Shown one piece after another: positions 6,750 through 42,923 of a DNA stretch of 43,607 nt. This DNA comes from Candidatus Zhuqueibacterota bacterium (GTDB taxonomy: Bacteria; BS750m-G25). The translations under genes and the position numbers were made by a program. The stretch spans positions 1 through 43,607 of the forward strand of contig JADHWK010000017.1 in NCBI GenBank assembly GCA_016783505.1, in the 5' to 3' direction. How positions within the stretch are numbered: position 1 is the stretch's first letter; each line of letters starts with the position of its first letter. The notes under the pieces are model-generated. The model was not told the DNA's origin. It saw only the letters and a program-made list of their open reading frames with translations, and did not search any database.

Positions 6750-6771
6750 CTTAACTCACTAAATTAATTAC

Positions 6772-6785: not shown

Positions 6786-6978
6786 AAAATGGGGCAAAAA
6801 AATAATAGGGCTTAAAATATCTATTTACAGATAACGTTAAAATGCTATAAGTAATCTCTTCATATCTATTTTCTTAATTTCATAGCTTAAAGGACTTACT
6901 CCTTTCCAAAAATCAACCACAGGCTTTACGCCTGCGGATGGCTCCGCACCCCGAGCCCTCAGGGTGCAGCTACTTCTT
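6786..6978. other. Intergenic region between the DUF6504 promoter and the TPR gene
   Basis: Non-coding apart from the two hairpins after the TPR gene at 6920-6967. The remaining bases are AT-rich and show no gene. Confidence 0.45.
6920..6967 (-). terminator. Double hairpin, probable terminator of the TPR gene
   Basis: On the minus strand, GCACCC...GGGTGC (6946-6967) is followed by CAGGC-GTAAA-GCCTG (6920-6934) and then TGGTTGATTTTTGG. The second hairpin plus T-rich tail resembles an intrinsic terminator about 45 bp after the TPR stop codon. Confidence 0.45.
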
Positions 6979-9324: not shown

Positions 9325-9579
9325 GGTTTCTCTCCTTATTAGTTACCCCAAAATCACCTTTTCAAAAAATTCGGCGGAGGTAATAATCTGGGTGCCTTAA
9401 CGGTGATTAAACAAACTGTTAACTTCACATATATAATTTAATCATTCAAAAACAGAATATCAAGGTTTTTTTTATCCCAATTTAGCCTGAAGGCTGGTGA
9501 CTTGCAATGGGCGACCGGGGAGTTTCAATTTGACCTCTCGGATATCTTGTTTTTTATTTTAGATTTGAAATTGGGGGGG
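9325..9579. other. Intergenic region upstream of the TPR gene
   Basis: 255 bp. On the minus strand TTGATA, a 17-bp spacer and TAAATT lie around 9424-9465 and could drive the TPR gene. Nothing else is recognised. Confidence 0.4.
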
Positions 9580-12564: not shown

Positions 12565-14067
12565 TTATTCTAAATACGACACGTTTAGCCAACGCGCCGC
12601 CCTGACTTCATCCAATCTTTTCATCGGGGTAGTATGGGGGGCGTTATGCACCACCTCGGGGCGTCTTTCGGCCTCCCCGGCAATCTGCTCCATGGCTTGG
12701 ATAAAATGATCCAACGATTCTTTACCCTCGGTTTCAGTGGGCTCAATCATCAGGGCTTCGGGGACGATGAGGGGAAAATATACCGTGGGGGCATGAACAT
12801 CAAAATCTAAGAGGCGCTTGGCCACATCCAAAGCCTTCACCCCCATTTCCTTCTGTTTCACCGCTGAAAGCACAAATTCGTGCATGCAGGGTCCTGGATA
12901 GGGTAGATGGTAACAGGACTTAAGTTTTTCCATCACATAGTTAGCGTTGATGAGGGCATTTTCGGCCACCCTTTTTAGTCCCTTACCCCCTAACATTTTG
13001 ATGTAAACATAAGCCTTGACCAACACCCCAAAGTTGCCGAAAAAGCTGTGCATGCGACCGATGGAGTTTGGAAGTTCATAATCTAGATAATACCGGGATG
13101 CAGGACTTCTATTCATTTCTTCCGAAATTCCTGGCCTGGCGGGCTTGGATCTGGGCTCTAAAGTTCGCTGCTTTATGAGGGGAACCGGTAAGAATTCCGC
13201 CAGATGTTCCTTTACCCCAACGGGACCGCTTCCCGGTCCCCCACCGCCGTGGGGGGTTGAAAAAGTCTTGTGGAGGTTAAAGTGTACCACGTCGAACCCC
13301 ATATCCCCGGGTCGGACGATACCCATCAGGGCGTTGAGATTGGCCCCATCCATGTAAAGCAAGGCCCCGGCGTCGTGGACAACCCGGGCCACTTCCAGTA
13401 TCTGGGTCTCAAATAAGCCCAGGGTGTTCGGATTGGTGATCATAAAAGCGGCCACATCCTCGTCCATAACGCCCCTTAGGGCATCGAGGTCCACCAAACC
13501 CTGAGGGTTGGACTTTATCTCTACCCCCTCATAGCCGGCAAGATGGATGCTGGCCGGGTTGGTGCCGTGGGCCGAATCAGTAATGATAACCTTCCTTCTC
13601 GGATTTCCCCTCAATTTATGATAAGCCCGCATGACGAGAAGACCGGTCAGCTCCCCGTGGGCGCCGGCGGCCGGCTGCAGGGTTACCCTGTCCATGCCTC
13701 CGATTTCACAGAGATCCCGCCCCAGTTCATCCATCAAACGCAACGCCCCTTGAACGGTTTCCTCGTCCTGAAAAGGATGGATGTGGGTGAAGCAGAACCA
13801 TGAGGCGATTTCCTCATTGACCTTGGGATTATACTTCATCGTGCAGGAACCCAGGGGGTAAAAACCCTTATCCACGTGGTGATTCATTGAGGAAAGGTTT
13901 ATAAAATGCCGGATGACCTCGGGTTCTGATACTTCTAGTAGCCCTAAGTCCTTATTCCGCAGGAAATGCGCTGGGATAAGTCCATCCCTCTCCGGAATGT
14001 CCAAAGGGGGAAGCGAATAGCCCTTTTTCCCTTTTTTGCTGATCTCAAAGATTAATTTTTCAGGCAT
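12565..14067 (-). CDS. gcvPB: Glycine decarboxylase P-protein subunit 2
   Basis: 500 residues, the usual size of the C-terminal half of the split P-protein. With GcvPA it forms the PLP enzyme that decarboxylates glycine and passes the aminomethyl group to the lipoyl arm of GcvH. The PLP lysine is in [20 protein letters not shown] (about residue 270); [11 protein letters not shown] and the C-terminal [13 protein letters not shown] region are also typical. Its partner gcvPA lies upstream on the same strand, but a toxin-antitoxin pair separates them, which is unusual. No gcvT is in the window. Confidence 0.95.
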
Positions 14068-14754: not shown

Positions 14755-16098
14755 CTATCCGTAAGAATTCCTGAGTGCTTTCACAAATCGATCCATTTCG
14801 TCTTTGGTCCTCTTCTCAGTAACCGCTACCAAAAGGCAATCGTTCAACCCATAATCAAAGCGACCGAGGTCAATGCCGGCAAATATCTCTTTCCCCCTCA
14901 ACTGACGGATCAAATCTCCAGGGGAAAGGGGAACTTGGAGGACGAATTCTTTGAAAAAAGGTCTGGGGATTCTGAGTTTGAACCCCTTTAATTGGGCAAT
15001 CTCTTCTGCCAAATAATGGCTTTTTTGAAGACAAAGTTGGGCCACCCCCCTTATGCCCTCTTTTCCCATTAAGGACAGATAGACAGCAGCCGCCAAGGCG
15101 TTTAGGGCCTGGTTGGAGCAGATATTCGACGTCGCTCTTCCCCTACGGATATGTTGCTCCCGGGTCTGGAGGGTCATTACAAACCCCGGTTTCCCCTCCC
15201 TGTCCTGTGTGGCCCCGACGATGCGCCCCGGAAGGCGGCGGATCAGGCTTTCCTTAACAGCAAAGATGCCCAGGTAGGGCCCCCCGTAGGAGAGGGAATT
15301 TCCCAGACCCTGCCCTTCTGCAGTCACCACATCAGCCCCGTAGTCCCCGGGCGGCTTGAGAAGGCCCAATGAAATAGGGTCAACGGAAACCACATAAAGC
15401 GCCCCCGACCGATGGACGACCTTTTCAAGCTCCTCCACTTCTTCCAAACATCCCAAAAAATTGGGATGTTGCACCAGGACGGCAGCAGTCTGGTCATCTA
15501 CCGTTTCCCCTAACCGATCTTCATCGGTAGCACCCTCCTTCAGGTCTACCTCAACTAAGCTCAGTCCCAAACCCTGAAGACTGGTGCGGAGAACGGATCG
15601 GTAATGGGGATGGATCCCTTTAGAGATCACCACTTTCCGGCGACCGGTGTGGTGATAGGCCAGAAAGGCCGCCTCCGCCAGCGCCGTTGCCCCGTCATAA
15701 AGCGAGGCATTGGCCGCATCCATACCCATAAGGCGGCAGATTAAGCTCTGGTATTCGTAGATCGCCTGCAGGGTGCCCTGGCTGACCTCGGCCTGGTAGG
15801 GGGTATAGGCGGTGTAGAATTCAGGCCTGGAGGTTACAGCCCGCACCGCCGCCGGGATGAAATGATCGTAAGCACCCCCACCTAGAAAGGAGACAAATTC
15901 ATTAACGGTTTCGTTCAAACCGCTGATTTTAGCCAGGGATCTTGTTATTTCAACTTCGGATAATCCCCCTTTTATGTCCAGCTCCCGATTTAAACGGACA
16001 CTTTTGGGAATGGGAACCAGCAGATCCTCAAAACCTTGGACGCCGATCTCAGTCAACATATCCGCCCGATCCCGATCCGTATTGACGATAAAGGGCAT
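14755..16098 (-). CDS. gcvPA: Glycine decarboxylase P-protein subunit 1
   Basis: 447 residues, normal for the N-terminal half of the split P-protein. The opening FIVNTDRDRADMLTEIGVQG, the FLGGGAYDHFIPAAV block and TAYTPYQAEVSQGTLQAIYE are family signatures. It pairs with GcvPB, which carries the PLP lysine. It follows gcvH by 28 bp with an AAAGG ribosome site, consistent with one transcript. Downstream of it the operon is interrupted by the AbrB/PIN pair before gcvPB. Confidence 0.95.
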   Translation of the reverse strand: MPFIVNTDRDRADMLTEIGVQGFEDLLVPIPKSVRLNRELDIKGGLSEVEITRSLAKISGLNETVNEFVSFLGGGAYDHFIPAAVRAVTSRPEFYTAYTPYQAEVSQGTLQAIYEYQSLICRLMGMDAANASLYDGATALAEAAFLAYHHTGRRKVVISKGIHPHYRSVLRTSLQGLGLSLVEVDLKEGATDEDRLGETVDDQTAAVLVQHPNFLGCLEEVEELEKVVHRSGALYVVSVDPISLGLLKPPGDYGADVVTAEGQGLGNSLSYGGPYLGIFAVKESLIRRLPGRIVGATQDREGKPGFVMTLQTREQHIRRGRATSNICSNQALNALAAAVYLSLMGKEGIRGVAQLCLQKSHYLAEEIAQLKGFKLRIPRPFFKEFVLQVPLSPGDLIRQLRGKEIFAGIDLGRFDYGLNDCLLVAVTEKRTKDEMDRFVKALRNSYG

Positions 16099-29968: not shown

Positions 29969-30733
29969 TTATTTTTTCTCAGGGGATGCCAGCTTCAGGT
30001 CCAGAAAAGGCTTGAACAGGTCAATGGGAACGGGAAATGCGATAGTAGAATTATTCTCAGCCCCCACTTCGGTCAGGGTCTGCAGGTACCGTAGTTGCAG
30101 GGCAATCGGATGTTCAGCGATGATACCCGCCGCTTCCGCCAGTTTAGCGGACGCCTGAAATTCACCATCGGCGTGGATGACCTTGGCCCTCCGCTCCCGT
30201 TCGGCCTCGGCCTGCTTGGCCATGGCCCGCTTCATTTCCTCGGGCAGGTCCACGTGCTTTACCTCGACGTTGGAGACCTTGATCCCCCAGGGGTCGGTTT
30301 GCCTGTCAATGATCTCCTGGAGCTGTTTGTTGATCTTCTCCCGGGCGCTTAAGAGTTCGTCCAACTCCGCCTGGCCCAGGATACTCCGCAGGGTGGTCTG
30401 GGCCAACTGAGAGGTGGCGTAGAGGTAGCGCTCCACCTCCACCACCGCCCTGCTGGGGTTGATCACCCGGAAGTAGAGCACCGCGTTCACCTTCATCGAG
30501 ACGTTGTCCCTGGTGATGATGTCCTGGGGTGGCACGTCCAGCACCACCGTCCGCAGGCTAACCCTCACCATGCGATCAACGATGGGGATGAGCAGAAAGA
30601 TCCCCGGCCCCTTGGCCCCGACCAACCTTCCCAACCGGAAGATCACCCCCCGCTCATACTCCCTACACACCCGCACGGCGCTGGCCAAAAGCAGCACCAG
30701 CAGGACAATAATGGTGACTAATCCTAACGGCAT
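29969..30733 (-). CDS. Slipin (SPFH/stomatin family) membrane protein
   Basis: 254 residues. One N-terminal membrane helix ([15 protein letters not shown]), then the SPFH core: [40 protein letters not shown], and the coiled-coil [20 protein letters not shown]. Slipins oligomerise on the membrane, and in many bacteria the gene is beside nfeD, whose serine protease cleaves the slipin C-terminus. Here nfeD is 11 kb away, with an integron cassette array between. A promoter stands 78 bp upstream. Confidence 0.92.
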
Positions 30734-30929: not shown

Positions 30930-32054
30930 TCAGCTTTTCCATTTCACATTTACAAAAGTACCCCAGATACCGAAGAACACAAGATATGGAATATGTAATA
31001 GTGCAGATATGGGGAAATATGACATTAATTTACTTTCTTTTAAAAGTAATGACGTTTGATAAAGTAGAAAAAATTCTGAGACTGTCTTAATAGCGAATGA
31101 GATTATTGGTATTGTTGAAAAACCTAGTCCTAAGATAAAAGATGGTACTGTAATCAACAGGAGTAAATTATAAAAGAATACCGCTGATAGTGCAGCAGTC
31201 ATGGGAAGTGAATAATGCAATCCTTTGGATGCCCATCGCATTCGTTGCCTTAGAATTTGGATTAGAGTAAACGGTGGTACAGTATTGACAAATGACCCTT
31301 CTGATGAGGCAAACCGGAATTTCCAATGTGTTCTATCACGGATAAGCATCATCAATAAGTCGTCATCACCCGAGTCGAATTGTTTGATTTCAGAAAATCC
31401 GCCTACTTCATCAAAAGCCTTGCGGCGATAAGCAAGATTTCGTCCTGCACACAGGATGGGATAGCCACCACCAATTCCACCGGCACCAGCAGAGATGATT
31501 GATAGGTTGTCAAATTGTATCAGTCTATTAATAAATCCATTTCCTTCAATAGGAGAGTAACCAGCTACAAATCCTACATTGCTATCGAAGTATTTTACCA
31601 TTTCAGCTATCCAATACTGTGAGGGGAAGCAATCGGCATCTGTTGTGCATATGATTTCTCCTTTCGATATAGAAATTCCACGAGTAAGTGCATATTTTTT
31701 AGGTGATATCATGTAATCGTCCGGAACATCTTCAATTTCAATCAGATGCAAATTTGGATGGGTTGTCAAATATGATTTAACAATTTCACCCGTTTTATCT
31801 TCTGAGCGATCATTAACGATAATTACTTCATAAAGTTCCTTTGGATAGTTCTGATTGATAAGTGCCTTAATACATTCCTTTATTGTTTTTTCCTCGTTCC
31901 TTGCCGCGACAATTATTGAGATAAAAGGTTTATCTTTATTTAGTTTGTGTTGTGATTTTACTCTTCTGAGATAGTAAACACCAAAATTCAGCCACAAAAC
32001 AACAAGAAAGTAAAAACCTGTCAATCCAAAGAGTATTATCTCAATGACATCCAT
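30930..32054 (-). CDS. Family 2 glycosyltransferase, membrane-bound
   Basis: 374 residues. N-terminal helix (about 5-27), then a GT-A domain: IIVAARNEEKTIKECIKAL, IIVNDRSEDKTGEI, the DXD-like TTDADCFPSQYW and the processive-type motif RQRMRW (about residue 275), followed by three or so C-terminal membrane helices. It should transfer sugars from nucleotide donors to a lipid or polysaccharide at the inner membrane. It follows the radical SAM gene by 14 bp on the same strand. Both are AT-rich compared with slipin and nfeD, which suggests later acquisition. Confidence 0.85.
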   Translation of the reverse strand: MDVIEIILFGLTGFYFLVVLWLNFGVYYLRRVKSQHKLNKDKPFISIIVAARNEEKTIKECIKALINQNYPKELYEVIIVNDRSEDKTGEIVKSYLTTHPNLHLIEIEDVPDDYMISPKKYALTRGISISKGEIICTTDADCFPSQYWIAEMVKYFDSNVGFVAGYSPIEGNGFINRLIQFDNLSIISAGAGGIGGGYPILCAGRNLAYRRKAFDEVGGFSEIKQFDSGDDDLLMMLIRDRTHWKFRFASSEGSFVNTVPPFTLIQILRQRMRWASKGLHYSLPMTAALSAVFFYNLLLLITVPSFILGLGFSTIPIISFAIKTVSEFFLLYQTSLLLKESKLMSYFPISALLHIPYLVFFGIWGTFVNVKWKS

Positions 32055-32068
32055 ATAACCTTTTTATA

Positions 32069-33238
32069 CTAAAATCCCATTAGACCACAACATCGAGAAC
32101 ATATCGGTAACAGCCCTTTTTCTTTGAGCGTATTTCGGAAGAGCTGGTAGCGTTCATTATTCCAAATATCGAGAATGCTGCCTTTGGTAATATTTCCCGT
32201 AATATAATCAGAATAATCTCTACAAGTTACTACATCACCGTTTGGCATTATCTCACAAATCAACCAGGGTGCAACGCATTGTTTATAGCTAAACTTTTCT
32301 GATGCGTCTTGGTAATATTTGGGAATTTGTTCGGTTTTCAAGTCGGGCAGAAAGATGTATTGAAATTTCCATTTTTTGGATTTAATTCTTTGAACGTTTT
32401 CTTGAATGGCTTTTGTGTCAATCTTATCAATTGGAAGCAAGTATCCTGTCCATGATGTTGGTGTTATACCGAAATGTTCTTGCATAATTTCCACATATTG
32501 TTTGCCGATTTCTTGATTTGTAAACCACGAATAATAACATACTACTGCATCTGCGCCTACATCTTCAATAATTTTAAATAGATTATATAATTCATAGTTA
32601 TTACGATCTGAAATAGTAATTAAAAAGACTAAGTAAGGCAATGAACTATCATGCTTCAGTTTATATTCATGAACTTGTCTAACGCCATCCATTAGATGTT
32701 GGTAACTTTTGTTCCATCCACGAATTTTATTATGTACTTCTTCAGGACCATCGAGGGACATTAGTAACCCATCCAACTTCATTCGCACCAGTTCTTCTGC
32801 ATTTTTTACTAATCCAATACCATTTGTAACGATTGTAGTTGTTAGCTGCATTTCTTTTAGATACCATAATACATCCATAATTGAATGATACAAAAATGGT
32901 TCGCCACCCCATATATAGAAAATTGGATTGAAAGGTTTAATGTCATCAATCAAGTTTTCATAAACTTTGAAAGGTAATTCGACATTGATAACTTCGCCGG
33001 GTTTAGCAAAGTTATAACCTTTCTCACCCCATTGAGCACACATTTTACAGCTAAGATTACATTTGTTGGTAATCTTAAGGCTTAATTGACGGAATGGCGC
33101 ACTTCTACCTTTTTTGAAATAGTAATCATAATTTACCGTTAGATGTTTCCGTAAAAGTGAGGAAAAAACCTGCATTATAAGATGCGGCTGTTGTGTCAAA
33201 AGTCGTTTTAAAACAGTAAATGGGACATTACTATGCAT
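32069..33238 (-). CDS. Radical SAM/SPASM domain protein
   Basis: 389 residues. Radical SAM cluster CX3CX2C in KCNLSCKMCAQWG (about 58-65); a C-terminal SPASM-type region with CVAPWLICEIMPNGDVVTC, the NITKGSILDIWNN segment and CSRCC at the end. Such proteins modify peptides, sugars or lipids; the following glycosyltransferase makes a role in a surface glycan or modified lipid plausible, but the substrate is unknown. Directly upstream lies the most decayed nfeD 3'-end copy. Confidence 0.85.
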   Translation of the reverse strand: MHSNVPFTVLKRLLTQQPHLIMQVFSSLLRKHLTVNYDYYFKKGRSAPFRQLSLKITNKCNLSCKMCAQWGEKGYNFAKPGEVINVELPFKVYENLIDDIKPFNPIFYIWGGEPFLYHSIMDVLWYLKEMQLTTTIVTNGIGLVKNAEELVRMKLDGLLMSLDGPEEVHNKIRGWNKSYQHLMDGVRQVHEYKLKHDSSLPYLVFLITISDRNNYELYNLFKIIEDVGADAVVCYYSWFTNQEIGKQYVEIMQEHFGITPTSWTGYLLPIDKIDTKAIQENVQRIKSKKWKFQYIFLPDLKTEQIPKYYQDASEKFSYKQCVAPWLICEIMPNGDVVTCRDYSDYITGNITKGSILDIWNNERYQLFRNTLKEKGLLPICSRCCGLMGF

Positions 33239-33269
33239 GGTTTTTTTCTTGATTGAATTTTAAAGTATT

Positions 33270-33347
33270 ACCTTTCCTTAAGCAATTCCATTTTAAGGAT
33301 CATCCGATCCATGCCTACCACCTTTATTTTTGTTCCCGCCTTGATCT
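33270..33347 (-). repeat. Decayed copy 3 of the nfeD 3' end
   Basis: About 78 bp align with the last codons of nfeD (41628-41700), including ATCATCCGATCCA and TTGTTCCCGCC on the plus strand, with about 20 differences. It starts directly at the stop codon of the 86-residue gene at 33347, as copy 2 does at 34905. Confidence 0.7.
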
Positions 33348-33607
33348 TAATGCATTACCTTCAATAATTTTTCCCCTCGTTTTTCAATTATATCCTTTTT
33401 TGACCCCTCAACCAATTCTTTGACAGCTTCTGTTCGCAGTAGTTTTTTAACATTAAAATTCTTTGGTATTTTAAGCTGATGCCTAAAACAGTTTGCAGGG
33501 TGGTTATTGAGAAAAGCCGCTACATTAATAGTGGTATCATCATACAGCACCCGTATTTCATAGTCTTTTCCTTCAAATGTCATTGGAATTTTTTTAAATA
33601 GGTCCAT
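33347..33607 (-). CDS. Cassette protein of unknown function, 86 aa (copy A)
   Basis: I do not recognise a family. It begins MDLFKKIPMTFEGKDYEIRV and includes AAFLNNHPANCFRHQLKIPK and a basic C-terminus (KKDIIEKRGEKLLKVMH). It is 77/86 identical to the protein at 34905-35165. Start: the ATG at 33607 aligns with the only start of the other copy and has GGGGAT before it; an ATG two codons upstream is possible. Homology between the two genes extends upstream exactly to the GTTAGG core of attC-like site A and then stops. It may be a small DNA-related or antitoxin-like protein, but this is not shown. Confidence 0.75.
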   Translation of the reverse strand: MDLFKKIPMTFEGKDYEIRVLYDDTTINVAAFLNNHPANCFRHQLKIPKNFNVKKLLRTEAVKELVEGSKKDIIEKRGEKLLKVMH

Positions 33608-33636
33608 AATCATCCCCGTTCATCATTTTTGAAAAA

Positions 33637-33698
33637 ACCTAACGCCTGAGCTCACCTGCCCCGAGACTTCAGGGTCAGGTGACAACGACTTGCTATAC
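33637..33698 (-). repeat. attC-like site A
   Basis: On the minus strand it begins GTATAGC and ends GTTAGGT, 62 bp. The arms TCACCTG/CAGGTGA (plus strand 33652-33682) pair with a mismatch next to CCC/GGG, typical of short attC sites. One core deviates from RYYYAAC. Confidence 0.6.
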
Positions 33699-33777
33699 AT
33701 ATAGCTCTACCCTGCAATTGTCTTCGTAAAAATAGGAAGTATTGGAAGTTAGACCCTCTACTTGATCTCCTATTTGC

Positions 33778-34164
33778 CTATATTTCCAATATGCACTCTT
33801 TAAAGTCTATTTTTAGTTTAAGTTCAACCAACGATTTCAATCCAAGCAATCCGTCTACATAGCTTTTGGGTGGAAGATCATGGACAACAACCCCAGTCCC
33901 TTCTATCTTTTTACCCAAAACAACCATAGACTTCAGGGTGACCAAAGGTGCTTTTTCCACTCCACTGGCAGTAATTATCTCTATTCTCTCTTTGGATAAC
34001 TCTGGCTCTAACCCTAAAATATCAGCGGTGTTCCATGGAATCATAGAAAAGGTTGCCCCTGTATCAAGAGCCATCCTTATCTTTTGCTTAGAGTTACTGC
34101 TACCCTCCAATAGGACACTTAATATGATTACTGGTGCTTTGGTGTTAAATCTAAACTTTGACAT
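33778..34164 (-). CDS. Retropepsin-like aspartyl protease family protein
   Basis: 128 residues from the ATG at 34164 (a start five codons upstream is possible). The catalytic motif DTGATFSMIP (about residues 33-42) and the downstream VDGLLGLKSL flap/psi-loop segment indicate a single-domain clan AA protease, active as a dimer. It overlaps the preceding 76-residue gene by 14 bp, so the two are translated together. It lies between attC-like sites B and A. Confidence 0.75.
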   Translation of the reverse strand: MSKFRFNTKAPVIILSVLLEGSSNSKQKIRMALDTGATFSMIPWNTADILGLEPELSKERIEIITASGVEKAPLVTLKSMVVLGKKIEGTGVVVHDLPPKSYVDGLLGLKSLVELKLKIDFKECILEI

Positions 34165-34381
34165 AAAATGCAACCGCATAACCCTTTTGGGGAATCTTTC
34201 CTGTATAGAAATGGTAGGTATATTTACCTTTCGCCTGTTTCATTGCCCCATAGGTATCATCCCTATTTTTAGAATGGGCTATCATCTTCACTTCTGTTGG
34301 TTCTCCCAATTTATCCTCTTTTAATACCTCAACCAATACCCATTCATTCTTGTATTTTTCTTCTACCTCTTTAACCTTCAT
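34151..34381 (-). CDS. Small conserved-looking protein, 76 aa, unknown
   Basis: Starts MKVKEVEEKYKNEWVLVEVL from the ATG at 34381, preceded by AGGGG; an upstream extension of the frame has no ribosome site. The sequence HSKNRDDTYGAMKQAKGKYT and the aromatic end suggest a small beta protein. It is translationally coupled to the aspartyl protease gene and probably works with it. No family name is known to me. Confidence 0.65.
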   Translation of the reverse strand: MKVKEVEEKYKNEWVLVEVLKEDKLGEPTEVKMIAHSKNRDDTYGAMKQAKGKYTYHFYTGKIPQKGYAVAFYVKV

Positions 34382-34490
34382 TTCTACACCCCTATTTGTT
34401 TTGCGATATTTAGTGTCAAACCTAAAAGACGAAAAGTAGAATATAATTCTGCTTTCGAAATCTAACCCCAATTGCCCATTGAATACTGTA

Positions 34491-34692
34491 TTATCTAACA
34501 GTCTGGATTAACCCTATATCTCTTCTGAGCCAGTCGTTCACTATCGTCTCAATGTCCGTATCTTTTTCCCCAGCAAGGTTACGGATGAAATCAGCTATCT
34601 TTGGCTCCAGATAAACAGGGAAATTTAATTCGGCATCAGGATGATAAAACTTGCCACGCTCACCCTTGTAAAAAATCGTATTCTTTCTTCAT
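34491..34692 (-). pseudogene. Antitoxin-like gene with a one-base frameshift
   Basis: From ATG 34692 the start reads KKEYDF, then a run of six T shifts the frame; after removing one T it continues YKGERGKFYHPDAELNFPVY, LEPKIADFIRNLAGEKDTD, IETIVNDWLRRDIGLIQ and stops at 34491. This is the family of short antitoxins with the YDFxKGxRGKFYxPDA start and a C-terminal ribbon-helix-helix-like part. Overlapping its start in another frame are the last codons of a probable toxin (GGIAGETYEERIRF). That toxin is cut off at about 34757, where the nfeD-like repeat begins. So both members of the pair are damaged. Confidence 0.65.
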
Positions 34693-34904
34693 AAGTTTCA
34701 CCAGCAATACCCCCCAATTCCGTGAAAAATGTTAATACCCAATTTTTGAGTTCAAGATCTTTAAAATAGCATACCTAACTAAACCGTAAAATTTGGGTAA
34801 TTTCCAATATTTTTTTATCCTACAATCAACTTTCCCTAAACCGTTCCACCTTAAGGATCATCCGATCTACGCCGATCACCTTAACTCTTGTTCTCGCCTT
34901 GATC
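34693..34904. other. Toxin remnant joined to nfeD-like repeat
   Basis: 34693-34756 encodes only the end of a probable toxin on the minus strand (LELKNWVLTFFTELGG, in frame into the antitoxin start). From 34762 to 34903 the DNA is a copy of the nfeD 3' end and its downstream flank. Confidence 0.5.
34762..34903 (-). repeat. Decayed copy 2 of the nfeD 3' end plus downstream flank
   Basis: Aligns with 41566-41706: about 70 bp of the nfeD end (CTAAACCGTTCCACC, CCGATCACCTT) and about 70 bp downstream of it (CATACCTAACTAA, TAATTTGGGAT-like, ATTTTTTTATCCT). So the duplication includes non-coding flank and is not just a domain copy. It abuts the stop of the 86-residue gene at 34905. Confidence 0.8.
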
Positions 34905-35165
34905 TTAGTGCATTACCTTCAATAATTTTTCCCCTCGTTTTTCAATTATATCGTTTTTTGACACATCAATTAATTCTTTGACGGCGTCTGTTCGCAGTAG
35001 TCTTTTAACATTAAAATTCTTTGGTATTTTAAGCTGATGCCTAAAACAGTTTGCAGGGTGGTTATTGAGAAAAGCCGCTACATTAATAGTGGTATCATCA
35101 TACAGCACCCGTATTTCATAGTCTTTCTCTTCAAATGTCATTGGAATTTTTTTTAATAGTCTCAT
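34905..35165 (-). CDS. Cassette protein of unknown function, 86 aa (copy B)
   Basis: Near-duplicate (77/86 identical) of the protein at 33347-33607, starting MRLLKKIPMTFEEKDYEIRV. GGGGAT stands before its ATG. Upstream homology with copy A runs through TTTTTTC to the GTTAGG core of site B and then ends, as expected if both were inserted, or both sites were exchanged, at the integrase crossover. Downstream both run directly into an nfeD 3'-end copy. Function unknown. Confidence 0.75.
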   Translation of the reverse strand: MRLLKKIPMTFEEKDYEIRVLYDDTTINVAAFLNNHPANCFRHQLKIPKNFNVKRLLRTDAVKELIDVSKNDIIEKRGEKLLKVMH

Positions 35166-35194
35166 AATTATCCCCGTTCCTCATTTTTGAAAAA

Positions 35195-35266
35195 ACCTAA
35201 CGAAAAGCTAAGCTGTTGGAGCCCGCGAAAAACGGGTTTGAATCAGTTTGAGTGATAGGTTAAGAT
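35195..35266 (-). repeat. attC-like site B
   Basis: On the minus strand it begins ATCTTAAC and ends GTTAGGT, about 72 bp. The inner arms (CTGATT...ACCCG / CGGGCTCCAACAG) pair imperfectly. The GTTAGGT core marks the exact start of homology between the two 86-residue genes. Confidence 0.5.
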
Positions 35267-35310
35267 TTTATTTTGTGCTCAAATCCAATACTTTGGACCT
35301 AAACCCATCT

Positions 35311-35757
35311 TCATTTTAAGGGGTTGAGGTTGGCGTGGGCAATCCACTGCCAACCGCTGTCTGTCTTCAAAAAGACACTAAGCCTCGGGGCTGGCTTGGT
35401 TGACAGTCGTTTGCCCTCGATCGTCTCCTCCACTGAAACAAAGTAAGTTGCGATGATGACGGGGCCATTTTGAGTCACTTCAAAATTACTCAGAGTATAT
35501 TCGCCAATGTTCAGTCCCCTAAGTAATTCTATCTGTTGCTCCCGATTACGTGCGCCGTCCTCATGCACTGATTGAAAGCCTGGGGCGATCTTCTTTTCAA
35601 GCGCCGCCAAATTCCGCGCTTTCATATCAGCCCACAACTGACGCACCAATTTCTCGCCCAGGGTAGGTTCAGGGGCGGACTGCTCAGCGGTCAGGCGAAC
35701 TTGGCTGACAAACAGAAAGGCGAAGGCAAGCAATAATACTGATTTTAATGTATTCAT
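35311..35757 (-). CDS. Secreted NTF2-like (SnoaL/DUF4440) protein
   Basis: 148 residues. A signal peptide (LKSVLLLAFAFLFVSQVRLTA, cleaved after about residue 24) is followed by a cone-shaped NTF2-like domain: LVRQLWADMKARNLAALEKK, IAPGFQSVHEDGARNREQQI, and the C-terminal WQWIAHANLNPLK. Such domains bind small molecules or act as enzymes; no catalytic residue is certain. AGGAGGGAAAG precedes the ATG. It is a cassette between attC sites C and B, with the same 5' leader as the TIGR04076 cassette. Confidence 0.75.
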   Translation of the reverse strand: MNTLKSVLLLAFAFLFVSQVRLTAEQSAPEPTLGEKLVRQLWADMKARNLAALEKKIAPGFQSVHEDGARNREQQIELLRGLNIGEYTLSNFEVTQNGPVIIATYFVSVEETIEGKRLSTKPAPRLSVFLKTDSGWQWIAHANLNPLK

Positions 35758-35811
35758 CTTTCCCTCCTTTCTACGATTAACCTAAATTCCAAATGTGCAT
35801 CTACCACGAAA

Positions 35812-35874
35812 ATTCCGCAGTTCCTATTAATAGTAAGCGATCTAAAAAGCCCAGAAGCTACCCACGCACCTAAC
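35812..35874 (-). repeat. Shared cassette 5' leader, copy 1
   Basis: On the minus strand GTTAGGTGCGTGGGTAGCTT, CTGGGC, TTTTTAGATCGC and a CGGAATT end. It matches 38866-38934 almost base for base apart from a short indel and stops at the GTTAGG core, where the two attC sites diverge. Confidence 0.75.
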
Positions 35875-36004
35875 GGATTGCTGTTCAGCGGTGCAAGGAC
35901 TACGGCACACTGAACTTCATATTTAAAAAATGACTTTATGCGATGCAACAAACGCAACTAATTCTAAACATTGCCCTTGCATACGTTGTAACCGCTGGTT
36001 AGAC
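35868..36004 (-). repeat. attC site C
   Basis: On the minus strand it begins GTCTAAC and ends GTTAGGT, 137 bp: both cores fit RYYYAAC/GTTRRRY. Arms AGCGGT (35887-35892) with ACCGCT (35991-35996) and TGCAAGG with CCTTGCA (35975-35981) pair, leaving unpaired bases on one side as in attC hairpins. Confidence 0.8.
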
Positions 36005-36041
36005 ATGATCTATTATGACAAAATTAGAAATAAATCATAAA

Positions 36042-36830
36042 TTATTTTTCACTCAATAATAGTTCAGGTAATTCCCAAGATTTTCTATACTCGATAAAGA
36101 GTTGTTTTGTAAATTGTACTAAAATTGGATTTTTCAATGCGTCCAACCAATAAATAATATCTTTCATAGCTGAAGGAGCCATAGCTGTACAACCAGAGGT
36201 TGAATCTGTAGGACTAGACCAATTATGTAAGAAAATGCATGATCCAGCGCCTTTCTTACTGGGATTTTTATTATGATCAACCACAACACCCAACTCATAC
36301 CATATATCTGACAGACGCATTTTTTCAGACGAATGCCAATCAACGTTTTCAACTTCATTTCGGAGGACAATTAAATTATAGTACCTTGAATTCACGTCAT
36401 CCACACATTCCAGCATTTCGGTAACGTGAATATAAGGGATTTTTATACTATACATTTTTTCTACTGGAGAATAGGCAAATGCAGAACTCAACGTGAAAAC
36501 TCCTGCTGGACTTCTTCCATCTCCTTCTCTTTTAATTGGAATGTTTGTAGTATCTAATCTGTGCAATCCTATTCCCCAACCAAGTCCATTTTTCCCTATA
36601 ATAACATGTATTTTATCAACCAACTTATTCCAATCAGTTTCAGCATTATCGCGCTCAAAACGAAATAGAATCCCATTAGATTTCTTAAATGATTCAATTA
36701 TAACTAAAATCATCTGGCGACTAGATGAAGGGATTGGCGAAGTATTTTTAATTTGAGCAAAACAGAGTGAATTATTTAGAAGTGTAATAATAAGATAAAA
36801 TGAAAATTTCTTGGTTGCAGAAAAAGACAT
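36042..36830 (-). CDS. L,D-transpeptidase (YkuD) family protein, exported
   Basis: 262 residues from the ATG at 36830. The frame can open 20 codons earlier, but those codons lie in attC site D, and the inner start gives a clean signal peptide (KKFSFYLIITLLNNSLCFAQ). The YkuD signature is split as HNWSSPTDSTSGCTAM (His and catalytic Cys, about residues 200-215) with GDGRSPAGVFTL upstream. It would form or remodel 3-3 peptidoglycan links or attach proteins in the periplasm. It is a cassette gene between attC sites D and C. Confidence 0.8.
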   Translation of the reverse strand: MSFSATKKFSFYLIITLLNNSLCFAQIKNTSPIPSSSRQMILVIIESFKKSNGILFRFERDNAETDWNKLVDKIHVIIGKNGLGWGIGLHRLDTTNIPIKREGDGRSPAGVFTLSSAFAYSPVEKMYSIKIPYIHVTEMLECVDDVNSRYYNLIVLRNEVENVDWHSSEKMRLSDIWYELGVVVDHNKNPSKKGAGSCIFLHNWSSPTDSTSGCTAMAPSAMKDIIYWLDALKNPILVQFTKQLFIEYRKSWELPELLLSEK

Positions 36831-36851
36831 TTTTCTATTCTTCTTTAATAG

Positions 36852-36982
36852 GTCTAACGTTAAAATAAGCTGCTGGAACATACGGCGCACTGTATTTCAA
36901 TATTTTAAAAAACGTTTTGCGTGCACTGAAAATACAAATTCGCACATCGCTGTTCCAGACAGCTTAATTTTGATTGTTATAA
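36852..36982 (-). repeat. attC site D
   Basis: On the minus strand it begins TTATAAC and ends GTTAGAC, 131 bp. Arms AAGCTG (36867-36872) with CAGCTT (36960-36965) and TGGAACA (36874-36880) with TGTTCCA (36951-36957) are perfect. The spacers between them are one base on one side and two on the other, the extrahelical asymmetry expected of attC. Confidence 0.85.
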
Positions 36983-37002
36983 GGTATTTACCACAAAATA
37001 TA

Positions 37003-38235
37003 TTATTTTAATAAAACTAATTTTCGCGATTCTATAAAGCCCTTGTCCGTTTGTAATCTAGAATAATATATTCCACTGGCAAAACCACTAGCATCCCATT
37101 CCACATTATGATTACCTGCTGACTGTTTTGTGGATACCAACGTTGCCACCTTTTGACCAAGAAGATTGTAAATACTAATATCTACTTTGCTGATACTTGA
37201 TAATTGATATTCGATAGTTGTTACCGGATTGAATGGATTGGGATAATTTTGAAGCAAGGCAAAGCCTTCGGGAATTTCATTCTGTGAATCTCCAACCGAC
37301 GCGATTGCTCTCAGCTCCTCGATCACTTGGCTGCTCACCCAGTATGGATTGCCGTCCCATTGTTGATGCCGGTCGGAATGGAAAAACAGATACAATCCGT
37401 CGGGTGACACGAATGGTGCATTTTCCTGGGCAGAAGAGTTCACCGGCTCACCCATGTTTAAGGCGGGCGTCCATGAGCCGTCCGCCTTCTTGAAACTAAT
37501 GTATAAATCCGCCCCTCCATATCCCCCTGGACGATGGGATTCAAAGATCAAGTATTCATCGTCAGGATCGATATACGGTCCCAACTCCATGGATGATGAA
37601 TTGATGTTATCATCCAGCCTTTCAGGCGCTGAGTATATGCCGTTCACGCACCTGATGCAATAAATATCGGGATCCTGATTTCCAATCACCTCCATCCGCA
37701 AATAGAGGGTACCGTCCTTGGTGGCCGAAACCTCCCAGCCGCCGCCCAGGTTAGCAGGCCAAGGGAAATTGACTACCGTCGGAGTGGACCAACCGGTTTG
37801 TGTCCGTGTCGAAGTCCAGATCGATCCGCCGGGTCTATCGGAAATGAAATAAACGGTATTCCCGCTATCCGTAAAGGATGGGCTCGCAGTCATGAATCCT
37901 TCGGCAAATGAGGGCGTTTGAGGATCCGTCCACACATTGTCAACCATTTCCATGTAACGGATTCGAATCCCCTGATAATTGGCAGGCACATAAATGTCCA
38001 TATAAAACTCATTGCCGTCCTGCGTGAATGCCAGGGCGCCGTGCCACCACCAATCCGCATTCGACCGCAACTGGTTGGGTACGAACATTTGTGGCGTATT
38101 CCCCGGCGGCGCTTGCCCGAGATACGGCCCGGTGAGTTGTTGACCGAACGATAAACCAATACCACAGACAAAAATAGCAAATACGACCGTCAATAAAACA
38201 ACGGTCGTTACCGATGGAATGTTTTTCTTCTTCAT
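37003..38235 (-). CDS. Secreted PD40-like beta-propeller protein with T9SS sorting domain
   Basis: 410 residues. Signal peptide (VVLLTVVFAIFVCGIGLSFG) then repeated PD40/WD40-like strands with Asp-Glu-x-Tyr/Leu-x-Phe-x-Ser-x-Arg units: SPSFTDSGNTVYFISDRPGG, DDEYLIFESHRPGGYGGADL, DGLYLFFHSDRHQQWDG. The last 85 residues are a type A Por sorting domain: ALLQNYPNPFNPVTTIEYQL, then VDISIYNLLGQKVATLV and SGIYYSRLQT...ESRKLVLLK. It should be exported by the type IX system and anchored or released at the surface. GGAGAGAT precedes the ATG. It is a single-gene cassette between attC sites E and D. Confidence 0.88.
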   Translation of the reverse strand: MKKKNIPSVTTVVLLTVVFAIFVCGIGLSFGQQLTGPYLGQAPPGNTPQMFVPNQLRSNADWWWHGALAFTQDGNEFYMDIYVPANYQGIRIRYMEMVDNVWTDPQTPSFAEGFMTASPSFTDSGNTVYFISDRPGGSIWTSTRTQTGWSTPTVVNFPWPANLGGGWEVSATKDGTLYLRMEVIGNQDPDIYCIRCVNGIYSAPERLDDNINSSSMELGPYIDPDDEYLIFESHRPGGYGGADLYISFKKADGSWTPALNMGEPVNSSAQENAPFVSPDGLYLFFHSDRHQQWDGNPYWVSSQVIEELRAIASVGDSQNEIPEGFALLQNYPNPFNPVTTIEYQLSSISKVDISIYNLLGQKVATLVSTKQSAGNHNVEWDASGFASGIYYSRLQTDKGFIESRKLVLLK

Positions 38236-38332
38236 AAATATCTCTCCTGTTAATCATTTGATTTTTTCTAGAGTTTGCACATATGACATATATTCCTGAG
38301 ACAAGCATTCAAAAAAAAGTGTTATCTTTTCA

Positions 38333-38459
38333 TTATAACGTTTCGCATAACGGGCAAAACCGCTAAACGCGATAATAATGAAAGCAGACTTTAGACATAA
38401 AATTCAGAAACACTTAAAACGCTGCAGCGGTTTTGTCCCTGTTCAAACGATTGTTAGGT
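38333..38459 (-). repeat. attC site E
   Basis: On the minus strand it begins ACCTAAC and ends GTTATAA, 127 bp. Arms GGG (38352-38354) with CCC (38437-38439), AAAACCGCT (38356-38364) with AGCGGTTTT (38426-38434) and an outer CGTTT/AAACG are complementary, with one base unpaired on one side and two on the other. Confidence 0.85.
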
Positions 38460-38537
38460 CATCAGTTGTTAGTTCCTTGCCAGGCATTGCAAGAACGCGT
38501 ATCCCAGACTCCTTTCTATAATGCCACCATTACATGA

Positions 38538-38804
38538 TCAATCAATACGGCTTAACTTAAGCGTGATACCACACGGATCAGGGCAGTGGATTACAGCAAC
38601 CCCATTCTCGTCTTCCCAGGGGAAGTCCCCGCCATAACAAAGGGTCATTAGATAAGGAGCGATTGCTTCCCAAGCACCCAGACAGATCCCCTCAGGAGTT
38701 GTCTCATCTACCTTGAACACCTGGCCAACGACGTGAATGCCGCCTTGGCATACTCCGTCTTTGACTGTGATACTAACAGGCACTTGTGTTTTGTTATCTT
38801 TCAT
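38538..38804 (-). CDS. TIGR04076 family protein
   Basis: 88 residues. Members of this small family of unknown function share V...GVCQGGIHVVGQVFKVDETT, PEGICLGAWEAIAPYLMTLC and the HCPDPCGITLKL end with conserved cysteines, all seen here. The cysteine pattern suggests metal or cluster binding. AGGAG precedes the ATG. It is a cassette gene between sites F and E, with the leader also found before the NTF2-like gene. Confidence 0.75.
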   Translation of the reverse strand: MKDNKTQVPVSITVKDGVCQGGIHVVGQVFKVDETTPEGICLGAWEAIAPYLMTLCYGGDFPWEDENGVAVIHCPDPCGITLKLSRID

Positions 38805-38865
38805 ACTACGGGCTCCTAATGGCCGGGAGCTGAGCGGCGTCGGAACCTATTCTCCAATCTAAAAA

Positions 38866-38934
38866 ATCCGCAGTTCCTTTCAACCTACCAATATTAAACG
38901 ATCTAAAAACCCAGAAGCTACCCACGCGCCTAAC
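38866..38934 (-). repeat. Shared cassette 5' leader, copy 2
   Basis: Counterpart of 35812-35874, starting at GTTAGGC on the minus strand and ending near CGGATT. It may supply a promoter or ribosome-entry region to the cassette gene. Confidence 0.75.
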
Positions 38935-38970
38935 GACCACTGCTAACAGGCGCCGGGTAATCCTAAGACA
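38928..38970 (-). repeat. Partial attC-like site F
   Basis: Ends GTTAGGC on the minus strand with the inner GCGCCTGTTAGCAGTGGTC half, but no convincing RYYYAAC partner; the opposite half seems lost or replaced by the 3' end of the HEPN-like gene. Confidence 0.45.
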
Positions 38971-38975
38971 TGAAC

Positions 38976-39674
38976 TCATGCCTCAACTAAAAGCGTCCCG
39001 TTTATGACATTTTTAGACTTAACTTTCTTTTGTTTTTTTATTTGTTTTTTTTTTTTAATCATGCTGCGAATTTTCGATTTTGTCCCCATCAAAATATATT
39101 TCGACTGATAACTTTTTAAATATTTAACGGTCTTATCATAATCTTCTAATATTTTTGTGATATCATCATTATTAGAATCATCTTGATCCGGGTCGAAGTA
39201 TTTCCATTTATAATGAACAAATGCATTTCTGTGCTCCATCAATTGGAGCATCCTTAATTTATGATCATTGTGGAGGGGTTTAAAATTAAAAATTTCTAGT
39301 AGCCATGTAATTTTACCTATAAAAGAAACACTACGGATTATGTCCTTTATAACACTATATTTTATACCTTGCCTCCTACAAACTGATGAAATAATTCCAT
39401 TAATCCAATGTTCAGTCCATACTGCATACAGTAAACAAGATAAGTGTGGCTTCCCCAAGTTTCTGAATTCTCGTGCATTATTTAAAATGTCGGAAATATG
39501 ATCAATGGAAATTTCAAACCGAATGTTATTTAATTTGGGTAGATATTTTTCAAAGTATTTTTTAATTATAAGATGAAGTTCTTCAGGAGTTTTTTCTGAT
39601 GGATCTATCGTCCCATCGGCAATCATGCCTTCTAAAATACACCATACAAGTTCTTTCTCATAAGATTTTTTCAT
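38976..39674 (-). CDS. HEPN-like protein with RX4H motif, cassette gene
   Basis: 232 residues, almost all alpha-helical, very basic at the C-terminus (KSKIRSMIKKKKQIKKQKKV). HRNAFVHYKWK around residues 145-155 contains R-N-A-F-V-H, the RX4H arrangement of HEPN ribonucleases. The preceding segment (LLYAVWTEHWINGIISSVC) fits the first HEPN helices. No other family is recognised. It lies between attC sites G and F. It could be an abortive-infection or toxin-type RNase; no antitoxin is next to it. Confidence 0.6.
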   Translation of the reverse strand: MKKSYEKELVWCILEGMIADGTIDPSEKTPEELHLIIKKYFEKYLPKLNNIRFEISIDHISDILNNAREFRNLGKPHLSCLLYAVWTEHWINGIISSVCRRQGIKYSVIKDIIRSVSFIGKITWLLEIFNFKPLHNDHKLRMLQLMEHRNAFVHYKWKYFDPDQDDSNNDDITKILEDYDKTVKYLKSYQSKYILMGTKSKIRSMIKKKKQIKKQKKVKSKNVINGTLLVEA

Positions 39675-39708
39675 GAATTCAGAAATTTTGTTAGAAACCT
39701 TAGGTTAA

Positions 39709-39838
39709 GTCTAACGTTTTCGGCATCACCGGCCGAAACGCCAAGAGCAACTATCACGATTGATGTTATTCCACCAAACTTACAAACGCGGAATCAATGG
39801 ACCGCGGTTCGATCCGACTGCAGTTTTGTGTTATATGC
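39709..39838 (-). repeat. attC-like site G
   Basis: On the minus strand it begins GCATATAAC and ends GTTAGAC, 130 bp. CGAACCGC pairs with GCGTTTCG with one mismatch; the centre holds ATTGATGTTATTCC and GGAATCAAT. The arms are weaker than in C, D and E. Confidence 0.6.
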
Positions 39839-39932
39839 TCAAAAATAAATCTGAGTATTTATCCTTCTCTTCCGGACTAAGATCATGAACTCTAGTTCTT
39901 GAGGACAAATCCATAAACATGCCTTCAGTCAT
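39831..39932 (-). CDS. Possible small cassette peptide, 33 aa
   Basis: MTEGMFMDLSSRTRVHDLSP continues for 13 more residues and stops inside the first core of attC site G, a common placement for cassette genes. AAAGGA lies nine bases before the ATG. No homology is known to me, and such a short frame may arise by chance. Confidence 0.35.
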   Translation of the reverse strand: MTEGMFMDLSSRTRVHDLSPEEKDKYSDLFLSI

Positions 39933-40075
39933 GAAAAAATTTCCTTTATCGGCTAAGAATATCTAGTTTGTGTTTCTCCTGACAAATTCAACGAAGCACC
40001 TTGTTTAGACACAGTATAATAACGCCAACCCAAAACTGACTTCCCTAACCGCAATTTTAGGCATCTATGATTTTT
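39933..40075. other. Non-coding part of the H-G cassette
   Basis: About 140 bp between the membrane protein gene and the small peptide. I see no feature beyond AT-rich DNA. Confidence 0.35.
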
Positions 40076-40678
40076 CTATGTTGTTGCTATTCTTTTAGAA
40101 ACAGCGGCCATAAGTCCATAATATCCGTATGCAAGTACTAAAATAAAAATTATTTGAAGAGGGAAGAAAATATATGTTTTTAAAGACTTCCAAACTGTTC
40201 CTTCCATTAAGGCCGTTTTTATTACAATTACTTTATCGGCATATTGATTTTTATGCGCACGACTTAATTCATCAAAAATAGAAAATTCTTCGGTAAAGTA
40301 TTGTTGCAGGGTTATTGAGTCGTTCTCAAGCTTCCTGTTTAAATCAGCCAGATTAGTATCTTGATACGACATAGATTTAAAACTCGAAATTATTCTATTC
40401 TTAATAATTTTTTGATTTTCTTGTGAAAACCGTTCAAAGGGTATAAACTGTTTGAAAGCAGCAAATTCACTGCTTAATTGATCGTTGGCGGAGACTTGCA
40501 GAAGATTGGAAGCTCCCAATATTTCCAGAAAAACTGAATTCTGATATTCACTAATACGAAAATCCGCATATTGAATCAGAACCGATGAAACGAAAACAAA
40601 AATTAAGGAAATGATCTGTAGTCGGAGGATTCTAACCTCTTCGATGACTCTCATAATTTCCTCCGCTTTTTGCTTCAT
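40076..40678 (-). CDS. Two-helix membrane protein, 200 aa, unknown, cassette gene
   Basis: One membrane helix near the start (ILRLQIISLIFVFVSSVLI, about 17-35) and one near the end (YIFFPLQIIFILVLAYGYYG, about 168-187) enclose some 130 residues of charged helix with NRKLENDSITLQQYFTEEFS. The central part should be periplasmic or cytoplasmic depending on orientation. The ATG lies about ten bases after the GTTAGGC core of site H. No family is recognised; the layout recalls sensory or effector membrane proteins of defence genes, without firm evidence. Confidence 0.65.
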   Translation of the reverse strand: MKQKAEEIMRVIEEVRILRLQIISLIFVFVSSVLIQYADFRISEYQNSVFLEILGASNLLQVSANDQLSSEFAAFKQFIPFERFSQENQKIIKNRIISSFKSMSYQDTNLADLNRKLENDSITLQQYFTEEFSIFDELSRAHKNQYADKVIVIKTALMEGTVWKSLKTYIFFPLQIIFILVLAYGYYGLMAAVSKRIATT

Positions 40679-40687
40679 CCATTATTT

Positions 40688-40740
40688 GCCTAACATATTT
40701 TTGACTGCCCAATTACCGTGTTATAACATGGCGTTTAGGC
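40688..40740 (-). repeat. attC-like site H
   Basis: On the minus strand it begins GCCTAAAC (one extra A) and ends GTTAGGC, 53 bp, at the short limit for attC. It is the last site of the array, 60 bp from the nfeD 3'-end copy 1. Confidence 0.5.
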
Positions 40741-40798
40741 CGAATAAACGGCGTTCCAAAGAAATGAGCGAGAAAGAAATCCGTCAATATTATTCCCC

Positions 40799-41040
40799 GA
40801 CAATTAACCTTCCTTAAACCGTTCCACCTTAAGGGTCATCCGCTCCACGCCGATGACCCTGACCTTTGTTCCCGCCTTTATAGTCCGGGCGCTGGTGGCG
40901 TTCCATATCTCACCATGAACGGATACACTGCCGTCCTTAAAAACATTAGTGCGGGCCTCGCCGATCTCCCCCACCAGTCCCTCAGTCCCGGTGGCCACCT
41001 GGCGTTTATGGGCCCGTAAGCCCATGGACAGGGCGAAGAT
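40799..41040 (-). pseudogene. Copy 1 of the nfeD 3' end (73 codons)
   Basis: A frame of 73 codons (41025 to 40804) encodes the C-terminal OB-fold domain of NfeD with four differences from the intact protein (for example GLRAHKRQVATG for ALRAHKRQVSTG). DNA identity continues a few codons upstream of the ATG, ends abruptly at 41040 and includes about 5 bp after the stop. There is no ribosome site and no membrane segment, so it is probably a silent duplicate, though a free soluble OB domain is possible. Confidence 0.8.
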
Positions 41041-41344: not shown

Positions 41345-41627
41345 TGTTAAAACCTCCTATGTGTTTGTTTTATTAAAATCTCAATTTTTCTTTACTTTAA
41401 ACCATGCTAATATTATAACTAAGAACTTCCTGCTGGGGGGCTCCTTTCGTGGATGTTTCTAATATTCAGAATTTTTACTTTCACAATCATTCAAAAAAGG
41501 CTTGTAAAATACCTTGCATAGATATTGATATTAGGTATGGGTGTCAAAAGTCCACTTGTTCTTTAAAATTACATACCTAACTAACCCCATAATTTGGGAT
41601 AAATCTAATATTTTTTTATCCTGACAA
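41345..41627. other. Region between nfeD and the small membrane gene
   Basis: 283 bp. 41566-41627 is the nfeD downstream flank also found in copy 2. On the minus strand TTGACA with 17 bp to a weak TATCTA could be a promoter for the small gene. No gene is seen. Confidence 0.45.
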
Positions 41628-42923
41628 TTAACCTTCCTTAAACCGTTCCACCCTTAGGGTCATCCGATCCACGCCGATAACCCTGACCTTTGTTCCCGCC
41701 TTTATAGTCCGGGCGCTGGTGGCGTTCCATATCTCCCCATGAACGGATACACTGCCGTCCTTAAAAACATTGGTGCGGGCCTCGCCTATCTCCCCCACCA
41801 ATCCCTCAGTCCCGGTGGACACCTGGCGCTTATGGGCCCGTAAGGCCATGGACAGGGCGAAGATGAAGAACAGGGCGGTGAAGATCACCGCCGGCAGAAT
41901 GACCCCCAAGGAGACTTTAAAGAAGGGCTCGGGGGATTCGAACAACATAATGGAACCTAAAATCATAGAAATCACTCCTCCCACCGTTAACATACCGTAA
42001 CTGGTAATTTTGATCTCAGCGATGAACAGCACAATTCCCAACAGGATCAGCAGCAGCCCCGCATAGTTGATAGGCAGGGTCTGAAGGGCAAAAAAGGCTA
42101 AGATCAGAAAAATGGCCCCCACCACCCCGGGGAAAATGGAGCCGGGATTAGAAAGCTCGAAGAAAAGCCCATAGATCCCCAGCATGAGGAGAATATAGGC
42201 GATGTTGGGATTGCTGATCACACTCAGGATGCGATAGCGGAGGCCCATCTCCAACCGTTTTATCACCGCCTCCTTGGTTTTGAGGATTTTTTTACCCGCA
42301 AGCACCTCCACTTCCTTGCCGTCAATGCGGTCAAGGAGCTCTCTCAGGTTCTCGCAGACCATGTCCACCACCCCTATTTCCAGGGCTTCCTTTTCGGTAA
42401 TGGAGACGCTCTTTCTAACCGCATCCTCGGCCCAGTCCGGGTTGCGTCCCCGTTTTTCGGCGATGGAGCGGTTGAAGGTAGCCCACCAGTTGGTGTACTT
42501 TTCCATTTTGACATCAGAGGTATCCTGGGGACCGGGGGTAACCGGATGAGCCGCTCCGATGTTGGTGCCGCTGGCCATAACAGCGATGTGGGCCGCCAAG
42601 GTAATGGACACCCCGGCCGACACCGCCCCGGAACCGCTGGGAGCCACGTAAACGACGACGGGAACCTCAGAGGAAAGAATATGCTTGACGATGACCTGGG
42701 TGGCCTGAACCAGTCCGCCCGGGGTATCCATCATGATGATGAGGCATTCCGCTGAATCTTCGATGGCCTCCTCAATGGATTCCTTGATAAAACGAGAGGT
42801 CACCGGAGTGATGGCGTCGTTTATCTCAATCAAGTCCACCTGGGGCACTGCCCGGGTTTGAGAAAAACCCGACAGAAAAAACCCAAAAAAGCACAGACGT
42901 AAAAAAAGGGTATACTTTTTCAT
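41628..42923 (-). CDS. nfeD: NfeD-type membrane-bound serine protease
   Basis: 431 residues, full length. Signal peptide (LCFFGFFLSGFSQTRA), a ClpP-like domain with nucleophile Ser in GSGAVSAGVSITLAAH (about 100) and Lys in the EDAVRKSVS region, four to five membrane helices (about 235-355), and a C-terminal OB fold (GLVGEIGEARTNVF, GTKVRVIGVDRMTL). It processes slipin and similar membrane proteins. Slipin is normally beside it; here the cassette array intervenes. Its 3' end is the source of the three repeat copies. Confidence 0.93.
   Translation of the reverse strand: MKKYTLFLRLCFFGFFLSGFSQTRAVPQVDLIEINDAITPVTSRFIKESIEEAIEDSAECLIIMMDTPGGLVQATQVIVKHILSSEVPVVVYVAPSGSGAVSAGVSITLAAHIAVMASGTNIGAAHPVTPGPQDTSDVKMEKYTNWWATFNRSIAEKRGRNPDWAEDAVRKSVSITEKEALEIGVVDMVCENLRELLDRIDGKEVEVLAGKKILKTKEAVIKRLEMGLRYRILSVISNPNIAYILLMLGIYGLFFELSNPGSIFPGVVGAIFLILAFFALQTLPINYAGLLLILLGIVLFIAEIKITSYGMLTVGGVISMILGSIMLFESPEPFFKVSLGVILPAVIFTALFFIFALSMALRAHKRQVSTGTEGLVGEIGEARTNVFKDGSVSVHGEIWNATSARTIKAGTKVRVIGVDRMTLRVERFKEG

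Follow-up and report, generated by a model that had tools for sequence, protein, structure and literature searches.

A member of the FCB group carries in its chromosome, between the host genes nfeD and slipin, a block of DNA that is very probably a CALIN, an integron cassette array with no integrase in view, which comprises about seven cassettes and was inserted together with two accessory genes. Our results support the initial annotation in reading the region this way. The window, by which we mean the whole stretch of DNA analyzed (43.6 kb), is an entire contig (C72) of a 2.5-Mb genome that was assembled into 89 contigs with a completeness of 59.9%. We place this genome in the FCB group, as had been presumed, because it encodes 82 type IX sorting tails and the PorU sortase, but we rejected a phylum name drawn from a tree of nfeD and slipin, for which the support was too weak. 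A CALIN has at least two attC sites less than 4 kb apart and no integrase; the block contains at least four clear sites separated by gaps of no more than 1.7 kb, and no match to TIGR02249 occurred anywhere on the contig, in keeping with the earlier statement that no integrase was visible.

Other features of the contig lie outside the block. A long near-perfect inverted repeat (AACCGCGAAA...TTTCGCGGTT; window positions 4862–5009) directly follows an inositol monophosphatase gene and is unrelated to the array. The ORF of a Y-family polymerase (5447–6433) starts partway through the IMS domain, at profile position 77 of 148, and therefore probably has a mis-set start or is a truncated gene; LexA is encoded nearby, at 9580–10191. 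Glycine dehydrogenase is encoded as two subunits of the GcvPB and GcvPA type (12565–14067 and 14755–16098). Rfam at its gathering threshold gave no match within the window.

We searched for attC sites with two covariance models of our own. The first, R1, was trained exclusively on attC sites of other origin, seven of them taken from class 1 plasmids and one from an unrelated IntI-bearing genome. With both strands searched it found exactly three sites in the 43.6 kb, designated A, B and F, each of them within the block and on the minus strand. Because R1 was trained on short sites and misses those with long loops (D and E), we built a broader model, R2, from 27 R1 matches, including sites A and B but none of sites C–G; the R1 result is thus the independent one, since A and B belong to the R2 training set. 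One palindrome (L128) was left out of model training because its arms were almost fully paired, unlike those of attC. Run on the window with filters off, R2 matched seven of the proposed sites, all on the minus strand, whereas it gave no match up to an E value of 5 in a control of 1.2 Mb surrounding nfeD in 80 other genomes. Covariance modeling, the kind of check that the initial annotation had proposed, came out in favor of the array.

All seven sites lie on the minus strand. The best is A (33637–33698, 62 nt), with 37.3 bits (E 2.6e-7) by R1 and 50.9 bits by R2, followed by B (35195–35265; 18.5 bits, E 0.018, by R1 and 37.0 bits by R2). Two long sites, D (36852–36982, 131 nt) and E (38333–38459, 127 nt), scored 26.4 and 25.1 bits by R2, and F (38928–39018) scored 17.0 bits (E 0.013) by R2 and 13.3 bits (E 0.41) by R1. 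The remaining two were C (35868–36004; 15.2 bits, E 0.036), which has irregular arms, and G (39709–39836; 11.6 bits, E 0.27), which has the core CGTTAGAC. Eight palindromic sites had been counted originally; A, B, D and E are clear, F and C marginal and G weak, and the eighth, H, which had been proposed as the first cassette boundary, fails on the expected strand. It consists of a core only (GTTAGGC, 40688–40694, minus strand), with no minus-strand R2 match and no supported attC fold. Sites C, D and E had been singled out as bearing the hallmark of attC; the best sites are instead A and B. Several of the sites have decayed, in the R'' box of A (degenerate GTATAGC) and of F (GTCTAAA, although F retains the conserved extrahelical A) and in the arms of C and G.

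A scanner, which searches for R boxes, scores the pairing of the arms and reports sites at or below −15, found three sites in the region, all on the minus strand: C (−15.5), D (−17.9) and E (−18). No site at or below −15 turned up in 400 shuffles or in the remaining 33.6 kb of the contig; in AT-rich control DNA the background was 0.07 sites per 10 kb. A first, strict scan, in which at least 6 of 7 R-box positions had to be complementary, had yielded only chance pairs; relaxing R'' recovered D. In folding energy relative to shuffles, only D (z −2.74) and A (z −2.0) stood out; E reached z −1.6, and B, F and H (z 0.08) did not stand out. Because several sites fold no better than shuffles, we rejected minimum free energy by itself as a test for attC.

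An attC site is an imperfect palindrome in which an R'' (RYYYAAC) and an R' (GTTRRRY) box, and the L boxes between them, are paired; A, B, D and E, at 25–51 bits by R2, agree with this architecture. The strand polarity of attC is defined by extrahelical bases on the R''–L'' arm, near positions 16 and 23/24 (PMC2727003). Such bases appeared in the pairing output for D (positions 16 and 24) and for the class 1 controls; those of A, B, E and F were read partly by hand, with E carrying them at 16, 20 and 24, the positions seen in the Vibrio VCR. The polarity of the sites fits cassettes encoded on the minus strand. Compensatory changes in the model alignment numbered 99 cells as against 37 in shuffles (0/500), in an alignment that had been fitted to the structure. 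These observations bear on the idea that the palindromes are intrinsic terminators, REP elements or MITE-like repeats, with GTT and AAC cores present by chance. The sites are indeed intergenic inverted repeats, and on plain energy several of them look no different from shuffled sequence. However, they differ from one another in sequence while having in common their R and L boxes and the positions of their extrahelical bases, a model of attC finds them and finds nothing in the 1.2-Mb control, the compensatory changes are strong, and terminator-like sites occur near chance frequency and mostly elsewhere. We regard this explanation, which would also make the core-to-core duplication boundaries of both cassette pairs (see below) a coincidence, as having almost no chance of being correct.

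A cassette consists of a gene followed by its attC site. When single-stranded, the plus strand of the window would fold each attC into a hairpin, which IntI, a tyrosine recombinase, would recognize through the R and L boxes and the extrahelical bases. Because the recombinase would cut at G/TTRRRY (the slash marking the cut), cassettes would be joined head to tail in one orientation. The sites and the genes of the block do all lie on the minus strand, as had been noted, with cores 595–1558 nt apart (0.5–1.5 kb had been claimed) and start codons 9–123 nt after GTTRRRY, in line with the remark that the genes begin just past the core.

Reading along the minus strand, the array begins with two cassette genes for which a family search found no family (40076–40678, 200 aa; 38976–39674, 232 aa). 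These are followed by cassette genes with family matches, which encode a TIGR04076 protein (38538–38804, 88 aa), a PD40 beta-propeller protein with a type IX secretion sorting tail (37003–38235, 410 aa), an L,D-transpeptidase of the YkuD family (36042–36830) and a DUF4440 protein (35311–35757, 148 aa). Next comes a small gene (34905–35165, 86 aa) that sequence comparison identified as a copy of the last cassette gene (33347–33613, 88 aa), which has no family assignment and whose protein had no relative in the plasmids or viral contigs searched. Between sites A and B lie an ORF of 106 aa with no family (34151–34471), a retropepsin-like aspartic protease ORF of 133 aa (33778–34179) and an nfeD fragment, contents that a simple one-gene cassette does not explain.

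Contrary to the claim that the genes of the array were unrelated, the A and B cassettes carry the same small gene, 92% identical, and the C and F cassettes have a common leader. From GTTAGG on, the A and B leaders are identical at 20 of 20 positions, compared with 3 of 20 in the preceding 20 nt. Likewise, the leaders of the DUF4440 (C) and TIGR04076 (F) cassettes match at 19 of 20 positions from the core on and at 4 of 20 in the 20 nt before it. Both homologies begin exactly at CGTTAGG, as crossover at the R' core would have it, so that duplication boundaries fall at the cores of A and B and the leader homology starts at those of C and F. Two independent homologies starting exactly at the G/TTRRRY cut point are the footprint of integron recombination.

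The gene nfeD (41628–42923, minus strand), identified by its Pfam NfeD domains, forms the upstream border of the block, and the slipin/SPFH gene (29969–30733, minus strand) forms the downstream border. In 74 of 80 other genomes the two are neighbors, separated by at most ~350 bp, whereas here they are 10.9 kb apart. Inside the block, next to slipin, are radical SAM–SPASM and glycosyltransferase genes (30930–33238, minus strand), which are without attC sites by R2. The 3' end of nfeD is present four times in and around the array, with falling identity: besides that of the resident gene (41601–41864), there is a partial copy 3 (40777–41040, about 92–95% identical to resident nfeD), a copy 2 that extends into the 3' flank (34758–34903, 82%) and a copy 1 (33267–33345, 76%), these three on the minus strand, with copies 1 and 2 fused to the duplicated small gene. 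Because these four copies sit at the borders of the block and inside it, and because the radical SAM and glycosyltransferase genes are without attC, one could suppose that the block owes its origin chiefly to recombination, homologous or illegitimate, at this repeated sequence, with the attC cassettes arriving as passengers. We consider this unlikely: within the array, the boundaries of the cassette pairs fall at attC cores rather than at nfeD sequence, and recombination at nfeD leaves the attC sites themselves unaccounted for. A further proposal is that the nfeD 3' end is a recurrent entry point for cassette DNA, at which each arrival regenerates or duplicates the 3' end of the gene, much as islands enter at tRNA genes. 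We think this improbable; if it were true, arrays could settle in a host operon far from attI without destroying the operon.

No match over the TIGR02249 cut-off was present anywhere in the assembled genome (60% complete), and neither an intact intI nor an attI was found there, so the assembled genome does not hold a complete integron. Recombinases on contigs C82, C62, C59, C36 and C87 were rejected as intI: they are either XerC/D-like or tyrosine recombinases of other kinds, and several are fragments. However, contig C44 carries an intI remnant (2866–3190) that matches TIGR02249 positions 1–55 and 262–304. Its N-terminal 55 residues match IntI, with IntI4 of V. cholerae as their only PDB match, and in comparisons with both families this part matched every IntI but no XerC/D. 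For the C-terminal part, identity was 76–89% with most of these IntI proteins and 64% with one, as opposed to 59–74% with XerC/D. About 630 bp (~207 codons) are missing between the two, including the IntI-specific extra domain. At the junction lies a common ACCTTGCGG, with conserved residues in both frames, followed by a jump to the C-terminal RHSFATHLLEAG...YTHVLN block; the gap is consistent with a deletion between short repeats. The remnant adjoins co-oriented genes with three attC sites. Further along C44 (7127–8916), an SfiI-type restriction endonuclease and N6/N4 methyltransferase pair is followed by an attC site, placing restriction-modification in a cassette context.

The array in the window has company in this genome. 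Genome-wide, R2 found at least 24 attC sites at E ≤ 0.05, spread over at least 11 contigs, with C44 counted from a direct search. Nearly all of contig C39 (6.1 kb) is made up of cassettes; the model places four attC sites there, and its genes are short and co-oriented, several of them lipoprotein-like. C77 carries another array (4844–8789), in which four attC sites lie between genes of 329–425 aa. An alternative to a CALIN is that the window array belongs to a functional integron system. Its intact intI and attI would then reside in the 40% of the genome that was not assembled, and the other contigs with attC sites would be fragments into which the assembler broke one or a few large arrays. 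The low completeness of the genome would allow this, as would the many attC contigs that are short or have sites near their ends (C39, C17 at 8.9 kb, C2 and C30), and draft genomes are known to inflate counts of CALINs (PMC9024848). Nevertheless, the window array is flanked on both sides by host genes (nfeD on one side and the radical SAM, glycosyltransferase and slipin genes on the other) and is therefore not the broken end of a larger array; the sole assembled IntI-like gene is a deletion remnant that adjoins a different array; and the attC sites of the window score below most of those on C39 and C17. We thus see a functional system as possible but doubtful, and favor a CALIN. Its builder was most likely an IntI, either the one now decayed on C44 or one from outside, although, with 40% of the genome missing, loss of intI can only be inferred. 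Because the assembled part is without an intact integrase and several sites are decayed, the array is probably static by now and in decay, barring an integrase that acts in trans.

If so, the block is a well-bounded example of a declining integron outside the Proteobacteria, in a genome whose attC sites range from intact to degenerate, whose integrase was broken by a single internal deletion and in which cassettes have been captured in a host operon. The cassettes of this genome, among them the SfiI-type restriction-modification pair and the type IX-secreted protein, support the idea that sizeable pools of cassettes exist in genomes of the FCB group. As to how arrays come to lie away from attI, the insertion next to repeated nfeD ends offers a testable lead.

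The initial annotation had called a chromosomal array in this kind of genome poorly described, which overstated its novelty: CALINs are a very common, named class, with about six attC sites each on average (IntegronFinder, PMC9024848), and complete integrons have been published from Chlorobi, Ignavibacteriae and Bacteroidetes (PMC9024848, PMC9668308). Like published CALINs, the array has several attC sites spaced by less than 4 kb, in one orientation and with no adjoining intI (PMC9024848); what is less usual here is the location in an nfeD–slipin operon, the repeats of the nfeD 3' end and the survival of a deleted intI. Its attC sites also differ in being partly decayed. The complete integrons of the Bacteroidetes/Chlorobi group (Salinibacter, Chlorobi, Ignavibacteriae; PMC9024848) come from the same broad group and carry attC cassettes, but have an intact intI adjoining the array. 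Among 28 genomes that we reached through nfeD matches, 6 had an IntI over the cut-off, including, by record title, one of Ignavibacteriales, one of Bacteroidetes and two of Neomarinimicrobiota. The Bacteroidetes genome FK_Sedi_B_Bin.66 (L177) contains a candidate complete integron, with IntI at 9096–10031 and nearby R2 matches at 2823–3011, 5014–5200 and 6058–6245, all on the minus strand; intI and cassettes point the same way there, as in Treponema. In the chromosomal integrons of Treponema, cassettes likewise outlast intI, T. phagedenis having kept its attC sites after intI loss (PMC3607928), and intI points with the cassettes, as the C44 remnant does; here, in contrast, a physical remnant of intI is still present, next to a different array on a separate contig. 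Finally, the sites resemble class 1 attC (L131–L136) and the Vibrio VCR in their R and L boxes, the G/TTRRRY cut and extrahelical bases near positions 16 and 23/24 (16, 20 and 24 in the VCR), but their sequences are unrelated beyond the boxes, and the cassette genes here are not resistance genes.
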